Part shown: positions 28,649 to 32,109 of the stretch, piece by piece | Layout of the letters: every line of letters starts with the position of its first letter | Position numbering within the stretch: the stretch's first letter is position 1 | From: Marinifilum caeruleilacunae | GTDB lineage: Bacteria; Bacteroidota; Bacteroidia; Bacteroidales; Marinifilaceae | Reading direction: 5' to 3' | NCBI RefSeq assembly: GCF_013141825.1 | Contig: NZ_RZNH01000004.1 | Location: forward strand, 62,531 to 126,530 | DNA length: 64,000 nt | Notes under the pieces: model-generated | What the model was told of the DNA's origin: nothing | The model's database searches: none | Seen by the model: only the letters and a program-made list of their open reading frames with translations | Program-made: the position numbers and the translations under genes

Positions 28649-29758
28649 TTATTTAATCACATTAAGCAAAGTTTGCGCCTTAAAACATGTTTCCATCCAT
28701 TCTTTTTCGGGCAACGAATCGGCAGTAATTCCACCACCAACAAAAAGAGCCATACTGTTCTCTAAAACCTTCATACTTCTTAGGTTCACGAACAAAGACA
28801 AATCTCCATTCTCCTCAATTGGCCCAAGATATCCGGCATAATATTCCCGATCGTGATTTTCAACCCTATGTATCAAATCCAAAGCCAGATCTTTCGATAA
28901 ACCACAAACGGCAGGTGTAGGGTGCAAATCCTTTACAAAATTTGAAAGCTCTTGATTGTTAATTTCAGCCCTTGTTTTAAAAAGCGTTTTCAAATGCACA
29001 ATATTGCCTGCTGCTGCAGTACGAGGCCCATCAGTTTCAACATCTTTAAGCTGATATTTGTCGAAAACCGATTGTATGTATTCTACCACATATGCCTGTT
29101 CATCAATCTCTTTTTGTTCCCAACTTATATTTTCCAGCTTTCGCCCATCTAATTTTTGTGTTCCGGCCAATGCCATGGTTTCAAAAGTCGATTCACACTT
29201 ACGAACCAATCTTTCAGGTGTGGCTCCTATCCACAAACCAACCTTTGGAATATCTACCATAAACACAAAAGCTTTTGGATAAGTATCGCGTAAATTTAAG
29301 AAGGAGGATACAGCGTCTTTTCGACCTTTATTTTCTAACAATTCAATTCGGGAAAGAATCGCTTTTTCAAGTTTTTCCCCTTTTAGGTCTGCAAGCATGA
29401 ATTCAATCTGTGCTTGATACTCTTCCCTCGAACTGATATGCAAATCGTCGTGATTCTGGAGAGCAATATCAGCTTTGCTTTTTATCAGCTGAAGGCTTTC
29501 TTGATTTATTTTCGAGATTTCTCGTCGAATAAAATGAGATTGATACTTCTCATTGGCATGAAAAGGTGCAAACACAAAGCCTGATTTAGCAAAACACTCT
29601 TTTAGTTCATCGTATTTTTCGGTTTCTCCTTCAATTTGAGCCCCAAATTCCAGTGTATTAGAATCGGGTCTTGTGAACGCATAAAATGCAATATCCTTCC
29701 CTAAACAAACATTCAAAAAATCATGAATATCTATATCTTCCCCCTCGATAATGCTCAT
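28649..29758 (-). CDS. menF: isochorismate synthase
   Basis: Chorismate-binding enzyme of 369 residues that converts chorismate to isochorismate, the entry step of menaquinone synthesis. The C-terminal catalytic region shows LHPTPAVCGLSKDLA, GYLGPIEENGDLSLFVNLRS and LFVGGGITADSLPEKEW, typical of the MenF/EntC group. It follows the hotdog thioesterase gene by two bases and precedes menD. EntC-type siderophore function is unlikely given the men neighbours. Confidence 0.93.
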   Translation of the reverse strand: MSIIEGEDIDIHDFLNVCLGKDIAFYAFTRPDSNTLEFGAQIEGETEKYDELKECFAKSGFVFAPFHANEKYQSHFIRREISKINQESLQLIKSKADIALQNHDDLHISSREEYQAQIEFMLADLKGEKLEKAILSRIELLENKGRKDAVSSFLNLRDTYPKAFVFMVDIPKVGLWIGATPERLVRKCESTFETMALAGTQKLDGRKLENISWEQKEIDEQAYVVEYIQSVFDKYQLKDVETDGPRTAAAGNIVHLKTLFKTRAEINNQELSNFVKDLHPTPAVCGLSKDLALDLIHRVENHDREYYAGYLGPIEENGDLSLFVNLRSMKVLENSMALFVGGGITADSLPEKEWMETCFKAQTLLNVIK

Positions 29759-30284: not shown

Positions 30285-30476
30285 TTAGTCAATTTTTACA
30301 TTAACTGCATTTAATCCTTTTTTTCCTTCTACAACATCATAAGTTACGTTATCACCTTGGTCGATTTTGTCGATCAAACCTGTAACATGAACAAAAATGT
30401 CTTCTTGTGTTTCACTGTTTTTAATAAAACCAAAACCTTTAGTTTCATTAAAGAATTTTACTGTACCTGTAGGCAT
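30285..30476 (-). CDS. cold-shock domain protein
   Basis: A 63-residue OB-fold nucleic-acid chaperone. RNP1 (GTVKFFNETKGFGFI) and RNP2 (EDIFVHVTG) motifs are intact. It is single-domain and slightly shorter than E. coli CspA. It is divergent from the asnA leader, and a terminator follows it. Cold induction itself cannot be read from the sequence. Confidence 0.96.
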   Translation of the reverse strand: MPTGTVKFFNETKGFGFIKNSETQEDIFVHVTGLIDKIDQGDNVTYDVVEGKKGLNAVNVKID

Positions 30477-30679
30477 TACTAAAAAATTTAAAATTATTAC
30501 GTAGTAAATGTACGTAATTTGATTTAATAACTAAACAAATATCAGATTATTTTCAATTTTATTGATGAAGAATTAGCATAAAGCTTACAATTGCTGATAT
30601 TCAGAACGATATAAATAATAATTTTATATCAAAATAGCTCGATTTAATGAACAGAAAATCGGTTTCTGTAAAAATGACT

Positions 30680-30710
30680 TTTGGTGCTTTAAATATAAAT
30701 CCTACATTTG
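30680..30710 (+). promoter_or_regulatory. promoter of the asnA leader transcript
   Basis: TTTG at 30680-30683, a 19-base spacer, and TACATTTG at 30703-30710: a full match to the Bacteroidota sigma-A promoter. The transcript would start near 30716, only about 15 bases before the first leader ATG (30731). This placement makes the in-frame upstream ATG at 30647 irrelevant. Confidence 0.8.
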
Positions 30711-30730
30711 TAGGCAAGAAAGACAACAAT

Positions 30731-30805
30731 ATGATACAATCGAATAACAATAATAATCTTTTCAATAATTTGATGAATAATTCATCGAAAATGGGAAGCT
30801 TATAG
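30731..30805 (+). CDS. asparagine-rich leader peptide 1 of asnA
   Basis: A 24-codon frame beginning about 15 bases after the predicted transcription start. The peptide reads MIQSNNNNNLFNNLMNNSSK and then MGSL; 9 of 24 residues are Asn, in runs at codons 5-9, 12-13 and 16-17. Its last codons (30793-30800) form one arm of a potential antiterminator, and an intrinsic terminator starts 27 bases after the stop. This is the layout of a classical amino-acid attenuator leader: ribosomes short of Asn-tRNA stall before reaching the stop. The gene controlled, asnA, makes asparagine. Confidence 0.82.
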   Translation: MIQSNNNNNLFNNLMNNSSKMGSL

Positions 30806-30840
30806 ATGTTATCGACAAAATATATTACATGAGCCTTCCC
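30793..30840 (+). promoter_or_regulatory. antiterminator pairing of attenuator 1
   Basis: GGGAAGCT (30793-30800), inside the last codons of leader 1, can pair with AGCCTTCCC (30832-30840), the left arm of terminator 1, with one bulged C. This pairing excludes the terminator. A ribosome at the leader stop (30803) would cover the first segment; one stalled in the first Asn run would leave it free. Confidence 0.65.
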
Positions 30841-30863
30841 AATTTGGGAAGGCTTTTTTTTTT
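30832..30863 (+). terminator. attenuator terminator 1
   Basis: Perfect 9-bp stem AGCCTTCCC / GGGAAGGCT with a five-base loop, followed by a run of ten T. It lies between leader peptides 1 and 2, not after any long gene, so its role is regulatory. Confidence 0.88.
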
Positions 30864-30869
30864 GAACTA

Positions 30870-30923
30870 ATGGTACAATTTTTCAACAATAATAATAACA
30901 ATAATAATTCTCCCCCAGGGTGA
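30870..30923 (+). CDS. asparagine-rich leader peptide 2 of asnA
   Basis: A 17-codon frame seven bases after the T-run of terminator 1. The peptide is MVQFF, then eight consecutive Asn (codons at 30885-30908, a mix of AAC and AAT), then SPPG and TGA. Mixed codon use argues for selection on the amino acid, not simple triplet slippage. Its stop codon lies in the first arm of a second antiterminator, and a second terminator follows. No separate promoter is visible, so it acts in series with leader 1. Confidence 0.8.
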   Translation: MVQFFNNNNNNNNSPPG

Positions 30924-30963
30924 GGAAGTTGCATTGTTATACCATATTTCAAGCCTTTCTCAC
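30920..30963 (+). promoter_or_regulatory. antiterminator pairing of attenuator 2
   Basis: GTGAGGAAG (30920-30928, overlapping the leader 2 stop codon) can form nine base pairs, one of them G-U, with CTTTCTCAC (30955-30963), covering most of the left arm of terminator 2. The geometry repeats that of attenuator 1 with unrelated sequence, which is hard to explain by chance. Confidence 0.65.
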
Positions 30964-30983
30964 CAAACGAGAAAGGCTTTTTT
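30951..30983 (+). terminator. attenuator terminator 2
   Basis: Perfect 11-bp stem AAGCCTTTCTC / GAGAAAGGCTT, seven-base loop, followed by six T. It ends 37 bases before the asnA start codon. Confidence 0.88.
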
Positions 30984-31020
30984 ATTATCAACTTATTTCT
31001 ATTAATTAAAATTTAAAATC

Positions 31021-32058
31021 ATGAAAAACTTAATTATTCCTAAAGCTTACAAAAGTGTTTTAGATCCTGATGCAACTGAAAAAGCGATTAAATTTATTAA
31101 GGATCAGTTTCAACTTCAACTCTCTTCGGAACTTAAGCTCCGAAGAGTTACCGCACCTATGATTGTACTAAAAGGTACAGGTTTAAACGATGACCTGAAT
31201 GGTATTGAACGGCCTGTAGCCTTCCCGATTAAAGGTCTTGGCGAACAAACTGCCGAGGTGGTACACTCATTGGCAAAGTGGAAACGTTACATGCTTGGTG
31301 AGCTCCAAATTCCAATTGGTAAAGGTTTATATACCGATATGAATGCCCTACGTCCTGATGAAGATTTTACCAACCTTCATTCCATTTATGTAGATCAATG
31401 GGATTGGGAAAAATCAATTGGCAAAGAAGAAAGAAGCCTTGATTTTCTGAAAAGAACAGTAAAACAGGTTTATGCTTCGATGAAACGAACCGAGTACATT
31501 TTAAGTGAATATTATTCTGCTTTAACACCACAGTTGCCAGAAGAAATTACATTTATCCACTCTGAAGATTTATTGGAGAAATACCCCGATTTGAGTCCAA
31601 AAGAGAGAGAAACCGAAGCCGTAAAAGAGTTTGGTGCCATTTTTATTATTGGGATTGGAGCACAATTGAAAAACGGTGAACCACACGATGGCCGTGCTCC
31701 CGACTACGATGATTGGATTACTCCCTCACTAAACGGATACAAAGGCTTAAACGGTGATATTATTCTTTGGAACCCTGTTCTGGAGCAAGCTTTCGAAATT
31801 TCATCGATGGGTATCCGCGTAGACGAAAAAGCATTGCTTGAGCAGCTTGAAATTAAAGGTGAGGAAAAACGCAAAGAGTTAATGTTCCACAAAAAATTAC
31901 TGGCCGGAGAATTGCCTTATTCAATTGGTGGTGGAATTGGTCAGTCACGACTGTGCATGTTCTTGTTGCGCAAAGCTCATATTGGCGAGGTTCAGTCGAG
32001 CATTTGGCCCGATGAACTAAGAGACACATGTAAAAAAGCTGGAATTATTTTCTTATAA
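31021..32058 (+). CDS. asnA: aspartate--ammonia ligase (asparagine synthetase A)
   Basis: Makes asparagine from aspartate, ammonia and ATP in the cytoplasm. It has the class II aminoacyl-tRNA-synthetase-like fold, with 345 residues (E. coli AsnA 330). Visible family segments are APMIVLKGTGLNDDLNG, VHSLAKWKRYML, LYTDMNALRPDED, HDGRAPDYDDW and the motif-3-like GGGIGQSRLCMFLL near the C-terminus. It is preceded by two Asn-codon leader peptides and terminators, and followed by its own terminator, so it forms a transcription unit of its own controlled by asparagine supply. Confidence 0.96.
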   Translation: MKNLIIPKAYKSVLDPDATEKAIKFIKDQFQLQLSSELKLRRVTAPMIVLKGTGLNDDLNGIERPVAFPIKGLGEQTAEVVHSLAKWKRYMLGELQIPIGKGLYTDMNALRPDEDFTNLHSIYVDQWDWEKSIGKEERSLDFLKRTVKQVYASMKRTEYILSEYYSALTPQLPEEITFIHSEDLLEKYPDLSPKERETEAVKEFGAIFIIGIGAQLKNGEPHDGRAPDYDDWITPSLNGYKGLNGDIILWNPVLEQAFEISSMGIRVDEKALLEQLEIKGEEKRKELMFHKKLLAGELPYSIGGGIGQSRLCMFLLRKAHIGEVQSSIWPDELRDTCKKAGIIFL

Positions 32059-32078: not shown

Positions 32079-32109
32079 AAGAGTCCCTTCCCCCCAGGGA
32101 CTCTTTTTT
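32079..32109 (+). terminator. intrinsic terminator of asnA
   Basis: AAGAGTCCCT / AGGGACTCTT stem of 10 bp with a C-rich loop, followed by six T. Confidence 0.9.

Follow-up and report, generated by a model that had tools for sequence, protein, structure and literature searches.

A putative two-stage asparagine attenuator in the leader of asnA in Marinifilum and related Bacteroidota

Why would one biosynthetic gene be preceded by two short asparagine-rich reading frames, each with its own transcription terminator? The question is raised by asnA of Marinifilum caeruleilacunae, which lies in the stretch of 64,000 nucleotides analysed in this work (the window). Our reading of the sequence, to which we give a probability of somewhat under nine in ten, is that the leader region forms a two-stage, same-signal, ribosome-mediated transcription attenuator that would sense charged tRNA-Asn and control asnA.

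Anatomy of the asnA leader region

A preliminary description had reported two leaders, each followed by a terminator, and then asnA in the region 30680 to 31020, and all of these elements were found again (Table 1). T1 has a perfect core of 9 bp (AGCCTTCCC/GGGAAGGCT) followed by ten T, and the terminator scan gives it 11 pairs. To judge from the sequence, the asnA unit looks monocistronic. Conservation in close relatives had been proposed as a check, and both leaders and both terminators are indeed kept in 22 of 22 loci of the clade to which the window belongs (the window clade: six genera, asnA at least 78% identical). An in-frame ATG at 30674 was rejected as the start of leader 1: its position is 5' of the promoter, and nine of 14 clade loci lack the longer frame.

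Table 1. Features of the asnA leader region, in window coordinates
Feature	Position	Strand	Basis and details
Candidate Bacteroidota-type promoter, TTTG-N19-TACATTTG	30680..30710	+	exact pattern match
Leader peptide 1 ORF	30731..30805	+	ATG 30731 to stop 30805; 24 aa, 9 Asn; MIQSNNNNNLFNNLMNNSSKMGSL
Attenuator 1 segment 1, predicted protector CTTTTC	30758..30763	+	minimum-energy fold 30731-30866; pairs GGGAAG of segment 2
Attenuator 1 segment 2, predicted antiterminator strand	30792..30803	+	inside leader ORF end; pairs 30829-30841, including T1 5' arm
Intrinsic terminator T1 (segments 3, 4), then T run	30831..30855	+	fold 30816-30866: -18.3 kcal/mol, z -4.56
Leader peptide 2 ORF	30870..30923	+	17 aa, 8 consecutive Asn; MVQFFNNNNNNNNSPPG
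Attenuator 2 segment 1, predicted protector	30908..30914	+	fold 30870-30985; pairs 30919-30920 and 30922-30926
Attenuator 2 segment 2, predicted antiterminator strand	30919..30928	+	contains leader stop codon; pairs 30955-30964
Intrinsic terminator T2	30951..30979	+	11 bp, six T; fold 30934-30985: -16.1 kcal/mol, z -6.89
asnA, aspartate--ammonia ligase, putative controlled gene	31021..32058	+	TIGR00669 equivalog, 417.7 bits, cut-off 292.8, E 3.4e-125
Terminator-like site after asnA	32079..32105	+	terminator scan

The description had also claimed a full promoter. The pattern is present, as an exact match to what we take to be the Bacteroidota promoter consensus, but the pattern alone is not significant (6 matches in the window against 4.4 expected). 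What makes the promoter credible is its context: a -7-like TAnnTTnG lies 16-22 nt 5' of the leader-1 ATG in all 22 clade loci, and no -7-like element was found between T1 and asnA in any of them. The leader 2 ATG follows the T1 stem by 12-26 nt in these loci. Given the lack of a second promoter-like element, the two stages appear to stand in series on one transcript, as far as can be judged from the DNA. A palindrome over the -7 box (CCTACATTTGTAGG, 30701-30714) was considered as an operator and rejected as a chance match, being intact in only two of the 22 clade loci (L001, L006).

Upstream of the asnA leader, divergent and on the minus strand, the window encodes a 63-aa cold-shock-domain-like protein (30285-30476; E 9.5e-16 to the CspE model, under that model's curated cut-off). 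Further along the same strand lies isochorismate synthase (28649-29758, TIGR00543).

Could the Asn runs be AT-rich low complexity and the hairpins ordinary terminators, with no attenuation involved? AAT/AAC repeats are cheap in AT-rich intergenic DNA, and about eight Asn-dense short ORFs are expected by themselves on each resampled strand. The full unit of ORF plus terminator is rarer. One script found three such units on the plus strand of the window and none on the minus strand; two are leaders 1 and 2, and the remaining one (19094) belongs to the end of a longer frame. Among 20 composition-matched resampled windows (one strand each), only one carried one such unit, and the unit is absent from 197 of 248 asnA upstream regions. 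AAY x 5 occurs at only five separate places in the 5.27-Mb genome, of which two are leaders 1 and 2.

The leaders also differ between relatives in a manner that argues against mere low complexity: within the clade, AAT/AAC exchanges are synonymous and keep the frame. As counted pairwise across 21 clade loci (L031 left out), among related sequences and hence not as independent events, 608 of 1267 single-base codon differences in leader 1 are synonymous (48%), against 276/1404 (20%) and 219/1177 (19%) in the other frames. The same counts for leader 2 are 380/898 (42%), against 96/850 (11%) and 200/902 (22%). The start codon of leader 1 is invariant in the 20-row alignment A1 (alignments A1-A4 were built without L029 and L031). 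Together with antiterminators that are matched to their own terminator arms (see below), this makes an origin in low complexity very improbable.

Alternative structures and a model of ribosome stalling

Each window leader contains alternative structures that were absent from the preliminary description, namely an antiterminator strand and a predicted protector. Each unit thus has segments 1-4 of the textbook attenuator layout, with the protectors assigned by modelling. In attenuator 1 the antiterminator fold (30792-30844) reaches -14.8 kcal/mol (z -3.70, 1/200 shuffles as good) and the duplex of segment 2 with the T1 5' arm gives p 0.01. The protector strand is present in the clade as LF, AF, FF or SF codons. 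In attenuator 2 the antiterminator fold (30919-30965) reaches -17.7 kcal/mol (z -4.90, 0/200 shuffles as good); the arm-only duplex test gives p 0.114, and it is the loop-including fold that does reach significance. The place of its protector reads TTCTC or TTTTC in most rows of alignment A2. When the whole leaders are folded without a ribosome, protector and terminator form in both attenuators.

These structures suggest the following course of events. Transcription from one promoter would yield an RNA that carries two complete attenuators, one after the other. With plentiful Asn-tRNA, the ribosome would reach the leader stop codon and cover the antiterminator, the terminator would form and the polymerase would stop. 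With scarce Asn-tRNA, the ribosome would stall on the Asn codons with its front edge just short of the antiterminator strand, and the freed antiterminator would pair with the terminator 5' arm and let the polymerase read on. A polymerase past T1 would then face the same kind of test again, in a copy of different construction, and asnA would be transcribed only if both stages were passed. Read-through would therefore be the product of two probabilities, giving a lower leak and a steeper response than either stage. We infer the stalling, the Asn dependence and the multiplication of the two stages, and with them the sharper repression and the reduced leak, from this anatomy.

The geometry fits the model. 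The ribosome footprint extends about 12-15 nt from the P site (PMC3641672). If the last Asn codon occupies the A site, the ribosome edge would lie some 6-9 nt beyond that codon, just short of the antiterminator. In 70 of the 86 attenuators found by script across loci, pairing of the antiterminator begins 9-14 nt beyond the last Asn codon; for second units with the last Asn less than 34 nt from the terminator (L027, L149, L165) an earlier Asn served as reference when present. A ribosome at the stop codon would cover the antiterminator strand in the window. As in attenuators of the trp/his type, the predicted antiterminators are exclusive with the terminators, would be freed by a stall and would be covered by a ribosome at the stop codon. 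A stall at the earliest Asn codons of either leader could leave segment 1 free and favour termination. An equilibrium fold of the region that a stalled ribosome leaves free favours the terminator form in both stages (-19.2 and -19.8 kcal/mol), which means that the antiterminator would have to prevail during synthesis of the RNA.

The match between antiterminators and terminators is not peculiar to the window. Over the same 86 attenuators, a set that includes one false member (the first 'leader' of L156, the tail of an upstream frame), the pairing of the post-Asn segment with its own terminator arm was compared with dinucleotide shuffles: 58 reach p<0.05 and 10 reach p<0.01, with a mean z of -2.45, and 28 miss p<0.05, window attenuator 2 among them. 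For 43 attenuators from 27 hand-picked loci, the mean energy of own segment-arm pairing is -11.6 kcal/mol; random reassignment of the segments brings it to -8.38 (sd 0.33), and none of 20000 permutations is as good as the real pairing. The result is the same (0 of 20000 each) when the 27 first-or-only units and the 16 second units are permuted apart. At tandem loci the own partners pair better than the swapped ones in 15 of 16 cases, the exception being L013. Matched antiterminators and predicted protectors in both copies support the earlier proposal of ribosome-mediated attenuation by Asn leaders, and each stage very probably works, on this anatomy, by classical attenuation.

The two leaders are built differently. 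Leader 1 carries its Asn codons in spaced clusters (5+2+2), and leader 2 has one unbroken Asn run followed by Pro codons (SPPG, CPP), a pattern that recurs in other families. This might mean that the stages differ in sensitivity or in signal, leader 2 for instance also responding to Pro-tRNA or translation rate, with a graded in place of a sharpened response as the outcome. We hold this reading only tentatively: Asn dominates both leaders, both precede an Asn biosynthetic gene, and an overlap with the predicted protector strand can account for the conservation of the leader 2 Pro codons.

One-stage and two-stage loci in relatives

The preliminary description had predicted one or two Asn leaders with terminators upstream of asnA in related genomes, and such leaders do precede part of the more distant asnA genes. 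An asnA match is present in 30 of 57 family genomes. The order-wide search covered 393 genomes, of which 158 had a match, and part of the matches were read. The 248 asnA upstream regions passed through one script include three places entered twice; 51 have at least one Asn leader with terminator, 35 have two, and the others, in which the script found none, belong mostly to a commoner asnA clade. Among these others, the upstream regions of L045, L107 and L162 were too short to judge. L039, a 31-residue match, was excluded throughout.

Inspection of the 35 script tandems removed L156 as false and added L155, which gives 35 again. Among the matches listed, these are the 22 loci of the window clade and 13 with divergent asnA in the order, eight families in all for the 35 (L027, L148, L149, L151, L155, L160, L161, L164, L165, L168, L231, L234, L235). 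L166 is a probable tandem: it has a second Asn-containing frame, but the hairpin that follows is imperfect (-10.1 kcal/mol), and it was left out of the tandem count. The class-wide search covered 395 genomes, 24 of them with a match, and the 12 loci read include tandem units in L270 and L275, both outside the order, and single units in L268, L269 and L277.

Two stages are not obligatory, as shown by single-leader loci of two kinds among the matches listed. In family f33, the sole leader at five loci (L152, L153, L154, L157, L159) is of the distal type, reading NNNNNNCPP, NNNNNCPP or NNNNNNSPP; no terminator was found for the distal-type leader of L152. Twelve loci have one other leader (L024, L025, L026, L037, L038, L150, L156, L158, L217, L230, L233 and L236). 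The leader of L025 was spotted by eye, and no ATG start was found for it.

The existence of single-stage versions, both the distal-type and the other, raises the question of whether one stage only is a working Asn sensor at the tandem loci, the other being a relic or a constitutive partial terminator. The leader 2 antiterminators of genus g17 (L013, L014, L034-L036) would fit this, since their duplex scores are weak, with p 0.18-0.44 in four of five loci and 0.07 in L034. A relic is hard to reconcile with the retention of both frames and both terminators in every locus of six genera, or with the 16 second-stage segments, which never paired as well when reassigned among second-stage arms, and we consider it unlikely.

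We built covariance models from window-clade leaders only, R1 from the proximal and R2 from the distal ones. With a unit under the cut-off counted as lower, R1 gives the proximal unit the better score in 15 of 16 divergent tandem loci (L166 included; exception L275), and R2 gives it to the distal unit in 13 of 16 (exceptions L027, L149 and L166). In 54 family genomes the best 24 R1 matches and the best 26 R2 matches all lie at asnA. Of the single other leaders at L024, L025, L026, L037, L038, L217, L230, L233 and L236, eight match R1 and L026 does not. Because R1 and R2 mostly separate proximal from distal units across families, the two stages look old and distinct. A recent duplication of the leaders, which the preliminary description had already discounted, is rejected on the same grounds: the sequences of the two leaders differ, and each type is mostly recognisable in other families.

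A quick asnA tree, poorly resolved, places 21 of 24 non-attenuated asnA in one group. It was built from 55 of 172 rows, with the long or unstable L114, L150, L155, L164 and L167 left out among others, and on it the AU test does not reject the grouping of every attenuated asnA in a single clade (p 0.506). An earlier FastTree run, which used 41 of 121 non-attenuated proteins, placed the window clade with non-attenuated asnA. Proteins under 280 aa were excluded. The attenuator may have been gained once or on two separate occasions.

We lean slightly towards the more specific view that these are two non-identical leader attenuators in series reading the same tRNA, that the separate stage types predate the divergence of several Bacteroidota families, and that together they would act as a multiplicative, AND-like filter. 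If true, asnA would hardly be expressed when Asn is in excess, and its induction would be steep when Asn runs short. One-stage and two-stage versions occur naturally upstream of the same gene in related bacteria, and the value of the second stage is therefore directly testable.

Some loci depart from the window layout. In family f25 (L027, L165, L166) the leader 2 frames run into or past the T2 region with no stop before it, and the position of the ribosome at the end of translation must therefore differ there. In L037, which has a single leader, about 280 partly repetitive bases separate the terminator from asnA; the distance from T2 to asnA is 38-58 in the window clade.

Relation to known leader elements

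In Firmicutes, asn genes are controlled by T-boxes. A T-box or another tRNA- or metabolite-binding RNA element could in principle control asnA here too. Rfam models gave no match at gathering score in the whole window, T-box included, and none in the leader regions of 11 related loci. The matches above gathering score near these 11 loci, a tRNA (L234) and Acido-Lenti-1 (L027), both lie outside the leaders. We therefore hold such an element to be barely credible. The Phe_leader model (RF01859) reaches at best 36.8 bits in L013 and 30.6 in L001, against a gathering threshold of 55.

Enterobacteria are known to use leader-peptide attenuation in the control of several amino acids. In their his, trp, thr and phe attenuators the leader contains codons of the end product, the protector, antiterminator and terminator structures are mutually exclusive, and a T run follows the terminator. 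To our knowledge these classical attenuators are single, and none reads asparagine. The asnA region resembles them in that, as read from the DNA, both leaders are short ORFs rich in the end product, the intrinsic terminators T1 and T2 lie between leader and structural gene, and the downstream gene makes the amino acid presumably sensed (TIGR00669). It differs from them in having two attenuators in series and in being found in Bacteroidota.

Our searches of the open literature yielded neither an Asn leader peptide nor an attenuated asnA, nor any case in which two leader-peptide attenuators read the same amino acid; an earlier in-silico mention is possible. An Asn leader and tandem attenuators for the same amino acid thus look undescribed, as our searches found none, each stage being of a known kind.

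The nearest known system, from what its description provides, is mgtCBR of Salmonella, whose single transcript carries two short leader ORFs one after the other (mgtM, mgtP), of which one, codon-rich, senses charged proline tRNA (PMC3641672). Two leader ORFs in series are likewise present in all 22 loci of the window clade. Unlike asnA, mgtCBR senses ATP and proline and acts additively, through stem-loops unlike intrinsic terminators (PMC3641672). The differing signals and the lack of intrinsic terminators are not found at asnA, where both stages are Asn-rich, both have intrinsic terminators and the target makes Asn. The metE leader of B. clausii combines two complete tandem riboswitches with two predicted terminators; unlike the asnA leaders, these riboswitches respond to two ligands, as metabolites sensed directly by the RNA (PMC3641672). 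Tandem terminators, with a potential antiterminator at the upstream one, are described for the rimP-leader as at asnA, though not as amino-acid leader peptides (PMC2965389).

Single attenuators have been discussed as reaching low basal read-through through the design of one leader (PMC1183508). If it works as its anatomy suggests, cascaded attenuation would give a steep response with low leak at the price of slightly more RNA.

Within the same phylum, the map of Flavobacterium psychrophilum gives strong clues to leader-peptide attenuation upstream of amino-acid biosynthesis operons, and its main text, as far as available, makes no mention of asparagine (PMC9723704). The map of B. thetaiotaomicron describes sORFs reminiscent of leader peptides. 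The Bacteroid-trp RNA (RF01692), which we take to be a Trp-operon leader, differs from the asnA elements in concerning Trp and in being single, and has no Rfam match in the window. It is listed as a structured element for Bacteroidetes (PMC2864571). The asnA leaders add a comparative case for ribosome-coupled control in Bacteroidota.

Other leader attenuators were met in the family through the weaker model matches. Of 16 that were read, most resemble gene ends with terminators and six are Thr or aromatic leader peptides; the weaker R1 matches include such leaders as single attenuators. In L315 and L316 (relatives G059 and G060) a long ORF, read as 671 and 644 aa respectively, looks by eye like an aspartokinase-type gene. 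Directly before it stands a Thr/Ile-rich leader (MKKMNFTLTTTTIITMGSIITMPRSSCGIT in L315) followed by a terminator, and each locus appears by eye to have a single thr-type attenuator. In L317, L323, L324 and L330 (relatives G060, G021, G058 and G022) the leader is aromatic-rich (MTVLNSYFWFYFYFIK or a similar sequence) and has a terminator behind it, and the ORF downstream resembles prephenate dehydratase by eye; by the same inspection each would be a single phe/tyr-type attenuator in the same family.
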